From contig NZ_MUNX01000099.1 of the NCBI RefSeq assembly GCF_002001005.1, positions 1 to 64,000 on the forward strand: 64,000 bases of DNA, in the 5' to 3' direction. The position numbers were made by a program, and so were the translations under genes. Each line of letters begins with the position of its first letter. Positions within the stretch are counted from its first letter, which is position 1. The stretch comes from Flavobacterium sp. A45 (lineage in GTDB: Bacteria > Bacteroidota > Bacteroidia > Flavobacteriales > Flavobacteriaceae). The notes beneath the pieces are model-generated. The model ran no database searches. It saw only the letters and a program-made list of their open reading frames with translations, and was not told the DNA's origin. Positions 53,454-60,763 of the stretch are shown here, in pieces.

Positions 53454-55217
53454 ATGAAAGCTAAAATTTTACTATTCACCTTTGCGATACTATGTATTGC
53501 ATTAATTACCGGATGCGAAAATGACGATTTTAAAGAAGTCGTTGGAGTATGTCCGATAGTGGAATCTACAACTCCTTTGAGCAACGCATTAGATGTTCCG
53601 TTAGGACAAGTTATTACCGTTACGTTCAACGAGGAAATGGATCCAAGTTCGATTACTTCAACCTCATTTACGGTAGTTGGAGCTGCACCCATAGCGGGAA
53701 CGGTTACTTATGCAGACAGGACTGCCTCATTCACGCCAACACTTCCACTAGCGGAAAATACCACTTATACTGCTAGAGTTACTACAAAAGTAAAAGACTT
53801 AGTGGGTAATTTTTTGCAGGTTGAGCATGTATGGGCATTTTCAACAGGTACGCTTTTGAGACCTGTAGTGCTTACAACGGATCCAATTAATAATGCCATA
53901 GCTGTGAAGTTTGATAAAACAATATCGGCGACATTCAATATGGTAATGAATCCATCAACATTAAACGGCAGCACTTTTAAAGTGAATCAAGGGGTTGACG
54001 TTGTGGCGGGAACAATTTCCTACACGGGTTCAACAGTATCTTTTGTTCCAACAAATCCTTTAGTAGCCAATAAAATCTATACGGTAACTATAACTACTGG
54101 TGCTAAGAATTCACTGAATACTGCAATGGTTGCAGATTATGTATGGAATTTCACAACAGATATTGTGCCAACAGTAGCTGTAACAGATCCACTTAATAAT
54201 GCCATTAATGTTGCCTTAAATCAAACAGTAACTGCTGATTTTAGTACTATAATGGATGCTTCTACAATCAATGCGACCACATTTACTTTGAAACAGGGGA
54301 CAACAACAATTACAGGAACGGTTTCTTATTCAGGTACTACAGCTTCCTTTAATCCAACAAATTCATTGGTGATTGGGAAAGTTTATACAGCAACAATTAC
54401 AAATGGAGCAAAAAACGCAGTTGGGACAGCATTGGCTAGTGACTATGTTTGGGAATTTACAACTATACTGGCTCCTCCTGCAGCAATAATTATTGATCTT
54501 GGTACTGCAGCTATGTTTGGTACTTTTGGTGGAAATGCCGGGGTAACAAACCAAGGGTTAAACACAGTGATAAACAATGGAAGCATCGGGACGACTGCAG
54601 CTTCTACCCTTATTACAGGATTTCATGATGGTCTAGTAATTTACACTGAAACTCCTCTAAATGTAGGGAACGTGACAGGTGATATATTTACTGCACCTCC
54701 TGCTCCAGGGACAGCCACTTCATTTGCTGTAGCACAACAAGCATTGCTTGATGCTAATGCAGCCTATTTAAGTATTTCACCTGCATCAAAACCAGGTGGT
54801 TCAGATCCGAATGCTGGAGAATTAGGAGGATTGACATTAGCTCCGGGAGTTTATAAATCAGCAAGCGGTACTTTCAAAATCAGCAATGGTGATCTGACGC
54901 TTGATGCGCAAGGTGACCCAAATGCTACTTGGATTTTCCAAACTGCTTCAGGACTTACGGTTGGAATTGCAGGTCCTACAGGTGCCAAAAGTGTAATATT
55001 GATAAACGGCGGATTAGCTAATAATGTGTTTTGGTATGTAGGTAGTGCAGCTACTATCAACAGTGCTGGTGGCGGAACGATGGTCGGAAATATTATTGCC
55101 AATTCGGGTGTTACTTTTTCTACCGCCGGAAATGCAGCCCAAACGGTACTCAACGGAAGAGCAATATCTTTAGTCTCCTCTGTGACCATGGTAAATACAA
55201 CCATTAATGTACCATAA
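53454..55217 (+). CDS. Ice-binding-like (DUF3494) lipoprotein with three Ig-like repeats
   Basis: A 587-residue exported lipoprotein (lipobox ITGC, C21). After the anchor come three bacterial Ig-like domains of the SbsA/Big_5 type (about 35-130, 137-233, 235-330), each with the pattern STTPLSNALDVPLGQVITVTF / MDPSSI / YTATITNGAK / DYVWEFTT. The C-terminal 240 residues are a DUF3494 ice-binding beta-helix: LGTAAMFGTFGGNAGVTNQG, the TGDIFTAPPAPGTATSFAVAQ segment and LTLDAQGDPNATWIFQTASGLTVG (in parts), ending with repeated GGTMVGNIIANSGVTF. Such proteins bind ice surfaces or act as adhesins in cold-adapted microbes. It is followed 78 bp later by an OmpA-family gene, likely one transcript. Confidence 0.92.
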   Translation: MKAKILLFTFAILCIALITGCENDDFKEVVGVCPIVESTTPLSNALDVPLGQVITVTFNEEMDPSSITSTSFTVVGAAPIAGTVTYADRTASFTPTLPLAENTTYTARVTTKVKDLVGNFLQVEHVWAFSTGTLLRPVVLTTDPINNAIAVKFDKTISATFNMVMNPSTLNGSTFKVNQGVDVVAGTISYTGSTVSFVPTNPLVANKIYTVTITTGAKNSLNTAMVADYVWNFTTDIVPTVAVTDPLNNAINVALNQTVTADFSTIMDASTINATTFTLKQGTTTITGTVSYSGTTASFNPTNSLVIGKVYTATITNGAKNAVGTALASDYVWEFTTILAPPAAIIIDLGTAAMFGTFGGNAGVTNQGLNTVINNGSIGTTAASTLITGFHDGLVIYTETPLNVGNVTGDIFTAPPAPGTATSFAVAQQALLDANAAYLSISPASKPGGSDPNAGELGGLTLAPGVYKSASGTFKISNGDLTLDAQGDPNATWIFQTASGLTVGIAGPTGAKSVILINGGLANNVFWYVGSAATINSAGGGTMVGNIIANSGVTFSTAGNAAQTVLNGRAISLVSSVTMVNTTINVP

Positions 55218-55295: not shown

Positions 55296-57317
55296 ATGAA
55301 AACTAAAATTAGTTTTAAAACGGAATCATATACAACGTGGATTTCAGAGAATTTTCTCTTAAACACCCTTTTCTTATTGACTTTGTTGTGCTTAAGTGCT
55401 CAAACAAAGCTTCAGGCGCAAGAGGTTAATTACACAAAACCTACTTGGTATTTTGGTGTTGCAGCAGCCACCAACTATAGTTTTTACCGTGGCTCAACAC
55501 ATCAGCTTAATTCGAGTTTAACTCCTCCGGTTACTTTTCATAATGGAGAAGGAGCAGGGCTTTATTTGGCACCGGTTATTGAATATTATAAACCGAATAC
55601 AATATTGGGATTTATGTTTCAGGCAGGTTATGACAGCAGAAAAGGATCGTTTGATCAGAAAACCACTCCTTGTAATTGCCCCGCAGATTTATCTACAGAA
55701 TTAAGTTATATTACGGTAGAGCCTAGTATTCGTATTGCACCATTTAAATCTAATTTTTATATATACGGAGGTCCACGTTTGGCTTTCAATGTGGATAAAT
55801 CATTTAAATATCAGTTAGGAATTAATCCTGCTTATCCCAATCAAGAGGCAACGCCTGAGGTAAGAGGTGATTTTGACAATGTTGACCAAACGCTTATTTC
55901 TATGCAAGTTGGAGCAGGGTTTGATATTCCGTTATCCTCGCAAAAACATAAAACACAATTTCTTTTGTCTCCGTTTGTGAATTTTCAACCTTATTTTGGA
56001 CAACATCCCCGCTCAACCGAGACTTGGAGTTTAAGCACTCTTAGAGTTGGTATGGCACTTAAATTTGGACAAGGAAGTAAAACGGAAACTCCGGAAGTGG
56101 AAACATCTCAAGTTCAGTTTTCGGTATATGCACCTAAGAATATTCCGGGAGAACGTAACGTAAGAGAGGTATTTCCATTACGGAATTATGTTTTTTATGA
56201 TCTTGAATCGAATAAAATACCAAGTCGTTACAAATTATTACAAAAAGAGAATGTAAAAGATTTCAATGAAGATCAGATAGGAGGAGTTACGGCTTCTGTG
56301 AATCCTTCAGGTCGTTCCACACGACAAATGACGGTTTATTATAATGTAATCAATATTCTTGGGAATCGAATGGTAAAAAATCCTTCAGCGACTATTACGC
56401 TTGTTGGTTCTTCAGAAAAAGGATCAGAAGATGGTGTTGTGATGGCTGAATCTATCAAAACTTATTTGGTTGATGTATTCGGAATAAAATCGGCAAGAAT
56501 AACTACGAAAGGGCAGTTAAAACCCAATATTCCATCTGAACAAGCTGGAGGGACAAAAGAATTGGAATTACTTCGCGAGGGGGATCGTAGAGTTTCCATC
56601 GAAAGTAATTCACCTGAATTATTGATGGAATTTCAAAGCGGTCCAGATGCTCCATTAAAACCATTAGAGTTTGTGACTGTTCAGGAAGCGCCTATAGACA
56701 GTTATGTTACTATTGATGCGACAGGTGCAGGACAAGCGTATTCTTCATGGTCTTTGGAAACTACTGATCCAGACGGACAAATGAAAACTTTTGGCCCTTA
56801 TACTCAAGAAAAAGTAAGCATTCCTGGTAAAAGTATTATGGGAACTCGTGCTGAAGGAGATTATAAAGTAAAAATGATTGGAAAAACAAAAAGCGGCAAA
56901 ATTGAAGAAAAAGTAACCACTACTCACATGGTGCTTTGGACACCGTCTAAAACAGAAGAAGGACTTAGGTATAGCATAATTTTTGAATTTAATAAATCAA
57001 AAGCAATTGCTATGTATGAAAAATATTTGAGAGAAGTCGTTACGCCTAAAATACCTAAAAACGGTGTAGTTATCATTCATGGTCATACCGACATCATTGG
57101 TGAAGAGTCTTATAATTTGAATTTATCTTTGGACAGAGCCAATGAAGTAAAGAACATTATGGAAAAGGCATTGTCTGATTCAGGCAGAAGAGATGTGAAA
57201 TTTGAAGTTCATGGTTTTGGTGAAGACGAAAGTACGTCCCCTTTTGAAAATAAACTTCCTGAAGAGCGTTTTTACAACCGTACCGTGATAATCGACATTA
57301 TTCCTGCTGCTAAATAA
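55296..57317 (+). CDS. OmpA-family outer-membrane protein
   Basis: A 673-residue outer-membrane protein. After a long N-terminal signal (cleavage near QAQ at about 42) comes an N-terminal barrel-like region (about 45-260) with strands such as PTWYFGVAAATNYSFYRG and VEPSIRIAPFKSNFYIYGGPRLAFNV. A long middle part of unclear fold follows. The C-terminal OmpA peptidoglycan-binding domain (about 560-670) has the motif GVVIIHGHTDIIGEESYNLNLSLDRANEVKNIM (in parts) and NRTVIIDIIP. It follows the ice-binding lipoprotein and may help hold or present it at the cell surface. A terminator lies downstream at 57356. Confidence 0.85.
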   Translation: MKTKISFKTESYTTWISENFLLNTLFLLTLLCLSAQTKLQAQEVNYTKPTWYFGVAAATNYSFYRGSTHQLNSSLTPPVTFHNGEGAGLYLAPVIEYYKPNTILGFMFQAGYDSRKGSFDQKTTPCNCPADLSTELSYITVEPSIRIAPFKSNFYIYGGPRLAFNVDKSFKYQLGINPAYPNQEATPEVRGDFDNVDQTLISMQVGAGFDIPLSSQKHKTQFLLSPFVNFQPYFGQHPRSTETWSLSTLRVGMALKFGQGSKTETPEVETSQVQFSVYAPKNIPGERNVREVFPLRNYVFYDLESNKIPSRYKLLQKENVKDFNEDQIGGVTASVNPSGRSTRQMTVYYNVINILGNRMVKNPSATITLVGSSEKGSEDGVVMAESIKTYLVDVFGIKSARITTKGQLKPNIPSEQAGGTKELELLREGDRRVSIESNSPELLMEFQSGPDAPLKPLEFVTVQEAPIDSYVTIDATGAGQAYSSWSLETTDPDGQMKTFGPYTQEKVSIPGKSIMGTRAEGDYKVKMIGKTKSGKIEEKVTTTHMVLWTPSKTEEGLRYSIIFEFNKSKAIAMYEKYLREVVTPKIPKNGVVIIHGHTDIIGEESYNLNLSLDRANEVKNIMEKALSDSGRRDVKFEVHGFGEDESTSPFENKLPEERFYNRTVIIDIIPAAK

Positions 57318-57401: not shown

Positions 57402-57483
57402 AAACCCTTAAATAATTGATGTTTAAGGGTTTGTTTTTTGTAGCGAAGAATGGAGTTGAACCCGTGACCTCAGGGTTATGAAT
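57402..57483 (-). repeat. Left end of tRNA-flanked island: truncated tRNA-Met 3' portion plus terminator
   Basis: This stretch repeats 60106-60186 with about five differences over 82 bp: terminator hairpin AAACCCTTAAA.../...TTTAAGGGTTT, then the 3' half of tRNA-Met up to the anticodon loop (GGAGTTGAACCC onward, ending TTATGAAT). The last 32 bp (57452-57483) are identical to the intact gene. Beyond, similarity stops abruptly. It is an attachment-site duplicate, not a functional tRNA. Confidence 0.88.
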
Positions 57484-57640
57484 ATCTAATTCAGATTTTT
57501 TTTTTATTTTTTGAGGTATTGATTTATAAATGTTTTTTGTGAAAATTGGCTTTTCGATATTTTTTGACTTTTTCTCACTCTCCTTTTGTAGATGATTAAT
57601 CTAAATTCAGTTTGAAAATAGCTATATTAAAATGTCTTGT

Positions 57641-57739
57641 TTAACATGATATTTATAACGTGTTAACTTTTTTTACTTTTTCTAACATGAGAATTTTAAC
57701 ATGTTAAGTTTTTTTAGTTTTTTTTACATGATACTAACA
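57641..57739. repeat. Iterated TAACATG motifs near the left island end
   Basis: TTAACATG (57641), CGTGTTAAC (57659), CTAACATG (57682), the palindrome TTAACATGTTAA (57696), and an ACATG/CTAACAT pair (57726-57739) recur at 14-25 bp spacing in both orientations within 100 bp. They lie between the truncated tRNA copy and the Fic gene 3' end. Confidence 0.45.
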
Positions 57740-57760
57740 TCTTGTTGATTTTTTTTTTAA

Positions 57761-58855
57761 TTATTTGAACTTAAACTGCTGCGGAGCATTGTGCAGAAAG
57801 TCATATAAGGCTGTATTAATATAGAAATTTTCTTTTCCTATTTTATGTAATGTTACTAATTCTAGTTGTATAAGTTGTTCTAGATATTTTGAAGCTGTTT
57901 GTCTTGTAATATCCAAATCGTGCACTAGAAAATCAATCTTAGTATAAGGATGTTTAAATAAATTATTAATTAAATCTTGAGAATATATTTTTGGTAAATT
58001 GGTTCGAATTTTTTGTTTGTAATCCATCATTAGCTTTTTAATTCCCCTGATTATACCAGTAGTTTGATTAGATGTTTGTTCTACAGCTTCAAGCATAAAT
58101 AAAATCCATGGCTCCCAATTTTGAGTAATTCTGGTTTCTTGTAATAAGTGATAATAACTTCCTTTGTTTTGATTTATATATCTGCTTAAATAAAGGATAG
58201 GTAAGTGTAATAGATCTTCTTTTACTAGATATAAAATATTAATTATTCTTCCAGTTCTACCGTTTCCATCATAGAATGGGTGAATACTTTCAAACTGATG
58301 ATGTATAATTGCCATTTTCACTAATGGATCAATATCAGTTAAACTATCATCATTCATAAAGTTTTCTAAATTACTCATCAACGAAACAATTTCATTATGG
58401 CTTTGTGGTGGAGTATAAACAGTTTCGCCAGTTTCACCGTTTTTAAGTGCAGTACCCGGAAGTTTTCTAAAACCTGATTTGGTTTCTTCAAGTATACTTT
58501 GTATCTCTATAATTTGATTGCAAGTAATAAGTCGTTTTTCACGTACAATACTAAATCCTTCCTTTAAAGCTGAAGCATAATTATAAACTTCTTTGGCTGC
58601 TGAACTAGCAAATTGCTGTGCTATATTGTCACTACTGAATAATTCATCGTGTGTTGTAATGATATTTTCAATAGCCGAACTATCCTTTGCTTCTTGTAGA
58701 GAAAGTGTATTTAAGACAATAACTTCATTTGGAATAGTTTCAGCAACTCCGTTAAGTTCAGCAAGTGCTTTGTGTGCCAATGCTAATTTTTTAAGCACTA
58801 CCTTACTTTCTACTTCGTGTTGTAAAGGCAATGATGGAAGGGAATATTGGCTCAT
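57761..58855 (-). CDS. Fic-domain protein with N-terminal inhibitory motif
   Basis: A 364-residue Fic AMP-transferase, which would AMPylate or otherwise modify target proteins. The inhibitory helix motif SxxxEN is at 59-64 (SSAIEN) before the Fic core, so it is a class II self-inhibited Fic. The catalytic motif is HPFYDGNGRTGR (192-203), fully consensus. A C-terminal winged-helix (about 300-345; IDFLVHDLDITRQTASKYLEQL) would bind DNA, so it could also regulate transcription. Targets are unknown. It sits alone on the minus strand within the tRNA-Met island, divergent from the Mrr-like nuclease gene. It may have been acquired horizontally; its AT content looks higher than in core genes. Confidence 0.95.
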   Translation of the reverse strand: MSQYSLPSLPLQHEVESKVVLKKLALAHKALAELNGVAETIPNEVIVLNTLSLQEAKDSSAIENIITTHDELFSSDNIAQQFASSAAKEVYNYASALKEGFSIVREKRLITCNQIIEIQSILEETKSGFRKLPGTALKNGETGETVYTPPQSHNEIVSLMSNLENFMNDDSLTDIDPLVKMAIIHHQFESIHPFYDGNGRTGRIINILYLVKEDLLHLPILYLSRYINQNKGSYYHLLQETRITQNWEPWILFMLEAVEQTSNQTTGIIRGIKKLMMDYKQKIRTNLPKIYSQDLINNLFKHPYTKIDFLVHDLDITRQTASKYLEQLIQLELVTLHKIGKENFYINTALYDFLHNAPQQFKFK

Positions 58856-59170
58856 TTGTTTTAATTTTATATTATGGATTTTAAGCTTGATTGATTTGTT
58901 AATATTGTTATAATCAACTTTTAAAACATATTTATTTAGAGTTGTAAATCTAAGTAATTTTTATAATATCGGTTTTACCATAGAAGTTCTTCCATTAGAA
59001 ATAATGAAATTTTATTATTTTGTTTTGAAATAAAAAAGAATGAGATAAATATTTTCAAAATAGAAGCTATTCGTAATCATAATACAAATTAAATAGTACC
59101 TACTATTACAATTGCATTGTGTTTTACATTGTAAATTTAATAACTCTTAAGTTTTAAATCTGTAAGTATT
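58856..59170. other. Divergent spacer between the Fic and Mrr-like genes
   Basis: I see no gene here. It is very AT-rich and contains no clear TAnnTTTG box; both promoters must lie in it. No repeat is obvious. Confidence 0.6.
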
Positions 59171-60013
59171 ATGTATCCCGATTCAATAAATCCGAAATAC
59201 ACATTTGATAATGCGCATAATAGTAAATGTGTTTATTGCAATGAGCAACTTTCTATTCAAAAAATTGATAAGATTTTAAATGTTTCTTTAGCTGATATTG
59301 AAAGACGTTTCTATGGACATAGAATAAAAATGGAGAATATTCATGGTGATTTTACTAAGAATTACTTTAAGATTATTTCCGAATTAATGTATGAGAGTAC
59401 TATTCTAGGAATTTGTTTGACTTGTGGATGGTGGAAAATTTCAGAAAAGTACTGGATAGGAGCAGAGTACCAAATGTGGGATGTTTTTTTTAGTTTAAAT
59501 GGAACGTTGAGAAATCTGGATTTAAATAAATCTGATTTACCCTTATCTGAAATAAGGTCTTATTTGGTTAGGAATTATGAAAAAAGATATAATATTAATC
59601 CCAGACTTTTTGAAGAATTAGTAGCTGATGTATATAGTGATTTTGGTTATCAAAGTATTTGCACTGGATACACAAATGATGGAGGGATTGATGTAATTCT
59701 ATTAAAAAAGAATTCAGTAATCGGTGTGCAAGTTAAAAGATCAAAGAATAAAATTAAAGTGGAGCAGATACGATCTTTACTAGGCTCAATGATAATTAAT
59801 CAATACAAAGCAGGTATGTTTGTTTGTACTTCCGATTTCCAAAAAGGTGCATACTCTATAGCCAAGCGATTTTCTATAGAACTTATAAATGGAAATAAAT
59901 TTTACGATCAGTTAAGAGATGCTCAGGTGATACGGAATCAATTATCTACAATTGATTTGACTAGCGTTAAAAATTTGTATTATGAAGATTGTTATCCAAT
60001 GAATAGTTTGTAG
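59171..60013 (+). CDS. Mrr-type restriction endonuclease with N-terminal zinc-ribbon cysteines
   Basis: A 280-residue protein whose C-terminal third has the Mrr_cat PD-(D/E)xK nuclease pattern: FEELVADVYSDFGYQS, then GGIDVILLKK with D174, and GVQVKRSKNKI with Q187 and K189. The N-terminal 110 residues carry two CxxC pairs (C20/C23 in CVYC and C82/C85 in CLTC), likely a zinc-binding treble. Mrr-type enzymes cut methylated or foreign DNA, or act in other defence roles. No adjacent methyltransferase exists, so a modification-dependent or otherwise targeted activity is likelier than a classical pair. Island context and the divergent Fic gene support an accessory or defence role. Confidence 0.9.
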   Translation: MYPDSINPKYTFDNAHNSKCVYCNEQLSIQKIDKILNVSLADIERRFYGHRIKMENIHGDFTKNYFKIISELMYESTILGICLTCGWWKISEKYWIGAEYQMWDVFFSLNGTLRNLDLNKSDLPLSEIRSYLVRNYEKRYNINPRLFEELVADVYSDFGYQSICTGYTNDGGIDVILLKKNSVIGVQVKRSKNKIKVEQIRSLLGSMIINQYKAGMFVCTSDFQKGAYSIAKRFSIELINGNKFYDQLRDAQVIRNQLSTIDLTSVKNLYYEDCYPMNSL

Positions 60014-60105
60014 ATTATTGCAAATGCTTAATGTGTGATAAGTCACTCCTTTTCGTGACTCCTGTGAGTGGTAGTTAGATGTTTCTGAAACATAATTTCA
60101 ATAAA

Positions 60106-60136
60106 AAACCCTTAAACAATTGATGTTTAAGGGTTT
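60106..60136 (-). terminator. tRNA-Met terminator
   Basis: AAACCCTTAAAC / GTTTAAGGGTTT around a short loop lies just past the tRNA 3' end. The same hairpin is duplicated at the left island end. Confidence 0.85.
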
Positions 60137-60143
60137 GTTCTTG

Positions 60144-60217
60144 TAGCGAAGACGGGAGTTGAACCCGTGACCTCAGGGTTATGAATCCTGCGCTCTAACC
60201 GACTGAGCTACCTCGCC
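60144..60217 (-). tRNA. tRNA-Met (anticodon CAT)
   Basis: A 74-nt tRNA: acceptor GGCGAGG / CTTCGCT (one G-U pair at each end region), D-arm GCTC-AGTCGGTTAGA-GAGC style, anticodon arm CAGGA-TTCATAA-CCCTG with CAT anticodon and an A-C mismatch at the last pair, variable loop AGGTC, T-arm with GGGTTCAACTCCC. CCA is not encoded. The anticodon CAT could be initiator, elongator or tRNA-Ile2; lack of the initiator G-rich stem (GGG/CCC) argues for elongator Met. It is the intact right end of the island. Confidence 0.95.
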
Positions 60218-60370: not shown

Positions 60371-60763
60371 ATGGATTTAAAAGTGCGTTACGAAATCGAA
60401 TTCCCCATAAATTCCTCTCCTCAATTGTTGTACCAATATATTTCGACACCTTCGGGTCTGTCCGAGTGGTTTGCAGATAATGTAAATTCTCGTGGTGAGT
60501 TTTTTACTTTTATCTGGAATGATTCCCAAGAGAAAGCAAGGTTAGCTTCCAAAAAATCAGGGGAGAAAGTGAAATTTAGATGGGTTGATGATAATAATAA
60601 GGATACGGAATATTTTTTCGAATTGAATATTTTGGTTGATGAATTGACAAAAGATGTGTCTTTAATGGTAGTTGACTTTGCTCGAAAAGAGGAAGTTGAA
60701 GAGGCAACGCAGCTTTGGGAAAACCAAATTTCGGACTTGAAACATGTTATTGGATCCGTATAG
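60371..60763 (+). CDS. START-like domain protein (AHSA1-related)
   Basis: A 130-residue single-domain protein of the START/Bet v 1-like fold, the START_2 group of Bacteroidota. The start reads VRYEIEFPINSSPQLLYQYI, with GLSEWFADNV (the typical substrate-loop WFADNV) and FRWVDDNNKDTEYFFEL. The fold makes a ligand-binding cavity, but the ligand is unknown; a chaperone or lipid/hydrophobic ligand role is generic. Length is full. It is upstream of the class IV aminotransferase gene, separated by a terminator, so it is probably a single-gene unit. Confidence 0.85.
   Translation: MDLKVRYEIEFPINSSPQLLYQYISTPSGLSEWFADNVNSRGEFFTFIWNDSQEKARLASKKSGEKVKFRWVDDNNKDTEYFFELNILVDELTKDVSLMVVDFARKEEVEEATQLWENQISDLKHVIGSV

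Follow-up and report, generated by a model that had tools for sequence, protein, structure and literature searches.

The window analyzed here is a 64,000-nucleotide stretch of the genome of Flavobacterium sp. A45 (G000 in our comparisons; 4.35 Mb in 158 contigs, the window lying on contig C103), and our subject is its segment 57484-60142, which lies between an intact tRNA-Met gene and a displaced copy of the 3′ half of that gene. The intact gene, tRNA-Met(CAT) on the minus strand at 60143-60217, is the only tRNA that ARAGORN identified in the window (Rfam tRNA, 68.4 bits), and its terminator occupies 60106-60142 (inverted repeat I7, no strand assigned). The terminator and the tRNA 3′ half together (60106-60186) reappear as a direct repeat at 57402-57483, with the displaced terminator at 57402-57438 (direct repeat D3, 93%; no strand assigned) and the displaced tRNA 3′ half on the minus strand at 57440-57483. 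In the tRNA part, 42 of the 44 bases match and the last 32 are identical, and the homology stops at the anticodon loop, at 57483 in the displaced copy and at 60186/60187 in the intact gene. Chance can be set aside as the source of the displaced copy because its BLAST E-value, scaled to one genome, is 1.8e-29. The arrangement is that of a tRNA island, having an intact tRNA at one end and a 3′ fragment in direct orientation at the other; we take the intact gene and the displaced half to be its near and far attachment (att) sites, respectively. The G+C content of 57484-60102 is 27.8%, compared with 34.3% for the window.

Only two genes were recognized between the tRNA copies, encoding a Fic protein and an Mrr-type nuclease. 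The Fic gene (57761-58855, minus strand) encodes 364 residues with the Pfam domains Fic_N, Fic and SoFic-like_C, the motif HPFYDGNGRTGR at residue 192 and SSAIEN at residue 59, a stretch that we take to fit the autoinhibitory motif. It matches the PADLOC SoFic model over nearly its full length (E 3e-117) as well as SoFic chains in the PDB, and we assign it to the SoFic type based on its architecture and intact catalytic motif, with a score of 398 bits that falls below the NCBIfam SoFic equivalog cut-off of 550. The nuclease gene (59171-60013, plus strand) encodes 280 residues with similarity to Pfam Mrr_cat (E 4e-24), two CxxC pairs and a D...QxK motif, and its product matches the PADLOC candidate PDC-S02; no solved structure was matched in a sequence search of the PDB. 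Relatives of this protein were detected in 5 of 199 genomes at E<=1e-10, and beyond G000 and G065 these share only 36-38% identity over about 120 residues. SoFic has been described as protecting against phage via AMPylation and abortive infection (in passages of PMC12249575), and the most likely role of the predicted pair is phage defense. There is no integrase ORF (open reading frame) at 57484-60142 in the list of ORFs of at least 50 residues or by Pfam, since the sole further ORF of that size (58593-58913) overlaps Fic on the opposite strand, nor was a relaxase recognized among the genes between the copies. With no integrase inside, the segment is therefore not an autonomous island, and having neither its own integrase nor a relaxase it is not an integrative and mobilizable element (IME). 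An earlier note on this DNA, made from the sequence alone, had described both the near-copy of the tRNA terminator and 3′ half, identical over its last 32 bp, and a cargo of Fic and Mrr-type genes with no integrase, and our annotation agrees with it on each of these points.

The segment is flanked on the left by a gene for an OmpA-family outer-membrane protein (55296-57317, plus strand; Pfam OmpA and OMP_b-brl_2) and on the right by a gene for a START_2 protein (60371-60763, plus strand; Pfam). The START_2 gene marks the locus well, as tRNA-Met is present in 79 of the 80 named loci that were fetched as its best matches, five of which have a second tRNA copy, ending at 81-86, in the fetched flank. 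Further to the left, just beyond the border of the island, 53454-55217 encodes an ice-binding-like protein with Big_5 domains. Comparison with relatives for empty sites, which the earlier note had suggested, gave a divided answer. Three genomes whose OmpA proteins are 97% (G117), 95% (G190) and 79% (G079) identical to that of the window have no Fic, Mrr or displaced tRNA copy at this locus, where a spacer of about 680-730 bp separates the OmpA orthologue from the tRNA terminator; the possibility that all close relatives share the same two genes, named in that note as what would overturn its reading, is thereby excluded, and the other outcome named there, an ancestral origin of the duplicated tRNA part, was not borne out either. 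We dropped the description of these three loci as pristine empty sites, however; their spacers carry arm-like repeats of the kind described below.

The 680-730-bp spacer contains a small ORF (86 residues in G065) without a Pfam match, examples of which lie at L098 14601-14852 and L277 9698-9949 (L numbers denote fetched loci). It is present in the fetched flank of 32 of the 80 named relatives and absent from tRNA-Met in the window, and the single copy in G000 (69%) adjoins tRNA-Val on contig C115. Its occurrence near both tRNA-Met and tRNA-Val suggests that it is possibly another tRNA-associated mobile gene. In G030, one contig has OmpA beside the remains of a decayed tRNA, and another has the tRNA beside the small ORF. 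We infer that older and newer inserts have built up at this tRNA and that recombination between their repeats has removed parts of them.

The end point of the displaced copy in the window recurs at other loci. Among the fetched loci there were 28 distinct hits, other than full copies, that reached position 50 of the query: 23 ending at 80-88, two ending at 67, two that represent further tRNA-Met genes and one truncated where its contig stops. Of the 25 distinct displaced copies that this leaves, counting the one in the window, 23 stop inside a nine-base span at the anticodon loop, and 15 of these 23 end at 80 or 81, just past the anticodon. A narrower rule (copies ending at 70-99) found 26, of which three were dropped as other tRNA-Met genes identified by ARAGORN; copies of the terminator only (e.g., L160, L186) were left out. 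These counts are not frequencies, since many loci were fetched because a second tRNA copy had already been seen in them. Attachment centered on the anticodon is a recognized crossover subsite in tRNA genes, as stated in part of PMC4383910.

A candidate cognate integrase was found at tRNA-Met in other genomes. The starting query was an 83-residue ORF that adjoins this tRNA in F. frigoris and that we interpreted as the C-terminus of an integrase despite its having no Pfam match; it gave 18 matches in 17 of 299 genomes, none of them in G000. Fifteen of the 18 integrase-type matches have tRNA-Met or a displaced copy within the fetched 1.5 kb (the exceptions being L232, L233, and L239), and in seven genomes (G140, G304, G097, G116, G094, G220, and G202) a frame of 423-435 residues adjoins the intact tRNA-Met. 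G202 has a complete element, bounded by 45-bp identical repeats 14.8 kb apart. Within it are type I restriction genes and a gene of resolvase type, and its integrase gene adjoins the tRNA. As no relaxase was recognized in it, the terms used in passages of PMC7563491 would make it a mobile genomic island and not an IME. Relaxases (PF03432) were found near the integrase in two of the three stretches examined, those of G304 (E 3e-28) and G140 (E 7e-28), and the former resembles MobB (294 bits, cut-off 400). The far ends of both elements lie beyond what was seen, and the relaxases probably belong inside them. The G304 stretch also carries SIR2 and HerA genes, and that of G140 carries type I genes, as read from the ORFs.

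The earlier note had further proposed a search for a tyrosine integrase targeting this tRNA elsewhere in the genome, and on this point the outcome was negative for G000 itself, the type being found in other genomes only. A full-length tRNA-Met integrase, searched against the 158-contig assembly at E<=1, matched only a 25%-identical stretch of a XerD-like gene. PF00589 occurs in five genes of G000, three of which are XerC/XerD-like by score and length. The two others matched only their own loci among the loci compared, and no helper was found in this assembly. On contig C114, one of these two (L096 6461-7681) has two more tRNA-Met genes at a distance of about 300 bp.

The ends of the elements at tRNA-Met share short direct repeats that resemble integrase arm-type sites. 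Of 23 far ends, 10 have an exact copy of the motif TCSTYACT, often doubled 13 bp apart, at 72-107 nt inward of the junction. At tRNA-proximal ends, a 13-bp-spaced pair with at most two mismatches lies 60-114 nt from the tRNA in 26 of 117 distinct ends, compared with 9 of 3996 random segments. The counts at both ends are flattered by the fact that the motif was defined on the same loci in which it was counted. Among the 26 are six of the seven full-length integrase loci (L224, L225, L226, L230, L231, and L236, but not L229), with the repeats 60-103 bp outside the tRNA, which ties these repeats to the integrase type by association. In the window, the near end has a pair, AAGTCACT and TCGTGACT, 13 bp apart at 60040-60060 on the plus strand and 103 nt from the tRNA 3′ end, a placement and spacing like those of the repeats at most of the integrase genes; it has three mismatches, a level that was also reached 24 times in 3996 random segments and 7 times in 3000 letter shuffles. 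The far end has TTCTCACT (57572-57579, plus strand), with one mismatch and 89 nt from the junction. Based on how often random segments and shuffles reach the same levels, we regard the near arm as probable and the far arm as uncertain.

Close relatives of the window's Fic were found at this and at other loci. A Fic at E<=1e-120 is present in 23 of 398 genus genomes, and in six besides G000 the identity is 84-95%. In G100 and G334 the small ORF comes first, followed by the displaced tRNA 3′ half, Fic, a 997- or 1000-residue protein with TOTE primase and helicase domains, and tRNA-Met; their Fic proteins are 94.5% identical to that of the window, with the TOTE-type protein in place of Mrr, and the stretch from the displaced copy to Fic can be aligned among all three. 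G065 has an intact Fic and an Mrr gene split by a frameshift (L094 6930-7771). To compare Fic with its surroundings we used identity at fourfold-degenerate sites, with the flanking START_2, aminotransferase, AlgH and fmt genes pooled and the short, conserved HU gene (51-68%) excluded. Fic has 66/103 (G065), 79/107 (G100), and 70/104 (G334) identical sites and the flanking genes 83/231, 81/229, and 84/229, respectively (Fisher p of 2.7e-6, 5.3e-11, and 2.6e-7). This excess over the flanks argues that Fic very probably moved between the lineages of the window, G065, G100, and G334.

The locus also carries other cargo in other genomes, which the earlier note had put forward as a check and which G100, G334, and G202 exemplify for repeats of the same kind. 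Compact units at tRNA-Met in which no tyrosine integrase ORF was recognized include HipA and HipB-like genes in G014 (about 1.9 kb), a 512-residue Fic protein in F. segetis (about 3.3 kb) and, in F. sp. KJJ, a unit of roughly 9 kb holding AbiH, a Schlafen-type gene and a partial serine-resolvase gene. A search of an open-licence library gave no paper on Flavobacterium tRNA-Met islands, TOTE with Fic, or Flavobacterium IMEs.

Directly behind the Fic stop codon lies a palindrome-like array of two 25-bp units, TTAACAYGTTA-N6-TCATGTTA, 41 bp apart (57642-57707, minus strand), found exactly in 10 of the 398 genus genomes. Eight of these 10 have the array with Fic or a Fic fragment, and seven of the eight hold a Fic of at least 84% identity. 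In G068 the array and an adjacent Fic fragment are at tRNA-Ser, and in G345 and G416 the array is at the tRNA-Met locus without Fic, adjoined in G345 by a HicAB-like pair (read from ORFs). Related Fic genes, one of them a fragment, occur together with the 41-bp-spaced array beside or near tRNA-Ser(GGA) at L217 5179-6615, L218 2346-6523, and L265 9161-9661, and tRNA-Ser(GGA) is a second tRNA associated with the Fic module. The arms of the array are nearly invariant and the six spacer bases are variable, a pattern suggesting that it is bound by a protein.

We considered several identities for this array. Integrase arm sites were rejected on two counts, namely that the integrase-bearing loci scanned hold at most one half-motif and that the array accompanies Fic to other places. 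The array seems to resemble a XerD arm; a chromosomal dif site was rejected, as 388 of the 398 genomes lack an exact unit and six of 14 genomes have none even with two mismatches allowed. A structured RNA was likewise rejected, since folding was unremarkable (z -0.8 to -1.5, two genomes, both strands); the tRNA was the sole match in Rfam. An AS1-like small antitoxin gene was also sought behind Fic, and no ORF of more than 24 residues is present there in the window. Look-alike ORFs of 43 residues (G100, L214 3196-3327) and 32 residues (G334, L215 4086-4184) occur behind Fic in two genomes and in none of the others compared, and a variable small antitoxin gene in this position is possible.

Taken together, site-specific integration at tRNA-Met, as the earlier note had read it, is well supported by these comparisons: G117, G190, and G079 are free of the cargo, the cargo varies, 23 of 25 displaced copies share an end point, and an integrase type adjoins this tRNA elsewhere. 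We consider it likely, with good though not complete confidence, that 57484-60142 is a small genomic island inserted in tRNA-Met(CAT) by a tyrosine integrase crossing over in the anticodon loop. The incoming element would have brought its own tRNA 3′ half and terminator, which would now complete the working gene at 60143-60217, and the original 3′ half and terminator would have been displaced outward to 57402-57483. The enzyme probably belonged to the roughly 420-residue type found beside tRNA-Met in other Flavobacterium genomes, in elements of which some, with a relaxase near the integrase, look like IMEs. In the window's element, both core att sites appear to survive, along with one or more sets of degenerate arm-like repeats. 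Since it encodes neither integrase nor relaxase, it would move only with an integrase from another element, or in cis after such an element had landed alongside, the route described for the cis-mobilizable elements compared below. The best reading, in our view, is an integrase-less element derived from, or dependent on, the integrase elements at tRNA-Met, a reading that takes in both options of the earlier note, the decayed island and the satellite mobilized in trans.

Several observations weigh against this reading. In G065, Fic and the frameshifted Mrr are at the same tRNA with no displaced copy within the 20 kb fetched, so the cargo can sit at tRNA-Met without the repeat. The excess identity seen for Fic is not clear for Mrr (27/54 fourfold sites in G065, two pieces pooled, p 0.06), and close Fic genes are also found at places other than tRNA-Met, those of G298 and G197 lying near tRNA-Ser and that of G144 without any tRNA in the 20 kb fetched. 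The cargo-free relatives hold the small ORF and arm-like repeats between OmpA and the tRNA, a form that the window lacks; no pristine attB has thus been seen, and an extra deletion or exchange is required. The displaced copies in L137 and L167 stop earlier, at 67. As to the integrase, four proteins of the type score 24-35 bits against a PF00589 cut-off of 27.1, the full-length integrase of G232 has no tRNA-Met within 1.5 kb, and the full-length integrase locus of G116 has no arm-like pair. G202, the one complete element, shows no recognized relaxase among the ORFs scanned, and the level of the far-arm site in the window is reached by 3.7% of random segments and 5.3% of shuffles. Beside these points stands an observation on the G144 locus itself, where Fic is accompanied by a protein that reads like the TOTE-type one and by a helix-turn-helix (XRE-type) regulator (L216 10463-15498).

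Some of these observations would be expected had Fic and Mrr entered without a site-specific integration of their own, through homologous recombination in the tRNA-START_2 neighborhood or through an exchange involving the tandem att repeats of an older island. Such an entry fits G065, where the pair lacks a displaced copy, and the occurrence of Fic with its 3′ array at other places, as well as G030, where OmpA is also followed by a tRNA remnant, so that the displaced copy may predate the cargo. However, the element-side homology runs from the displaced copy into Fic in G000, G100, and G334, and the shared end of nearly all displaced copies at the anticodon loop also speaks against it; we judge this route unlikely. 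The same shared end point, along with the lack of any fetched locus with two full copies of tRNA-Met and the variation in cargo between genomes, leaves very little room for a tandem duplication of tRNA-Met in which one copy later decayed and two genes happened to insert, even though the terminator is doubled together with the tRNA half, and we regard that account as the least credible of those considered.

Rather than coming from an element transferred by conjugation, the segment might be what remains of a prophage that used tRNA-Met. Prophages commonly have tyrosine integrases that act at tRNA genes, and the complete G202 element has no recognized relaxase. However, relaxases are encoded beside the cognate integrase in G304 and G140, all three of these elements carry restriction or other defense genes, and no phage structural gene was noted among the ORFs listed, part of which were scanned, so a prophage origin seems quite improbable to us.

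Among known systems, the island in the window, on our preferred reading of it as an integrase-less derivative or dependent, most resembles the cis-mobilizable elements (CIMEs) of streptococci, described in passages of PMC7563491 as having a classical size of 1.2-13 kb and keeping att sites in the absence of recombination and transfer genes. Like these, it is within that size range, is flanked by att sites (here with a 32-bp identical core), carries cargo without integrase or mobilization genes, and occupies a site used by integrase-bearing elements. It differs in phylum and target gene, in having no integrase element in tandem and in that other species have the same Fic end paired with a different second gene. 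We call it only CIME-like because its origin by deletion and its mobilization are inferred. Integrase elements do exist at the same tRNA, with relaxases near the integrase in two of three stretches, but no intermediate with Fic-Mrr plus an integrase was found. It also resembles the class A tRNA islands of Islander, with a regenerated tRNA and displaced 3′ fragment at its ends and the anticodon-loop subsite; the Islander filters, as given in part of PMC4383910, test for an integrase gene, and the window's element would fail them. Its Fic matches the SoFic anti-phage system nearly full length in both the PADLOC model and SoFic structures, but the part of PMC12249575 describing that system places behind Fic a 47-residue antitoxin, AS1, where the window has the DNA array. 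The integrase elements of G140, G304, and G202 share with it the same tRNA and the same class of tRNA-side arm-like repeats, and differ in encoding an integrase and larger restriction or SIR2-HerA cargo, whereas the window's element encodes no recombinase.

As a tentative extension, about which we are rather doubtful, the Flavobacterium tRNA-Met may host a lasting family of integrase-less satellites of 2-5 kb. These would have the core and arm sites of their helper at both ends, swap toxin or defense cargo (SoFic with Mrr, SoFic with TOTE, HipBA, another Fic) and cross species on the helper integrase. On this view the 41-bp-spaced array would serve the SoFic module as a second site of recombination or control, independent of the first; the module is itself also found near tRNA-Ser and at a place without a tRNA.

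Our analysis turns a bare repeat into a testable system: the tRNA and the crossover point can be named, a helper integrase and its arm sites have candidates, and the units themselves are compact and carry little other than conflict genes. Such units would be lost to island-finding programs whose filters look for an integrase gene, and defense genes carried in this way may therefore be undercounted. If these units do move in trans, they would be satellites of integrative elements, not of phages.

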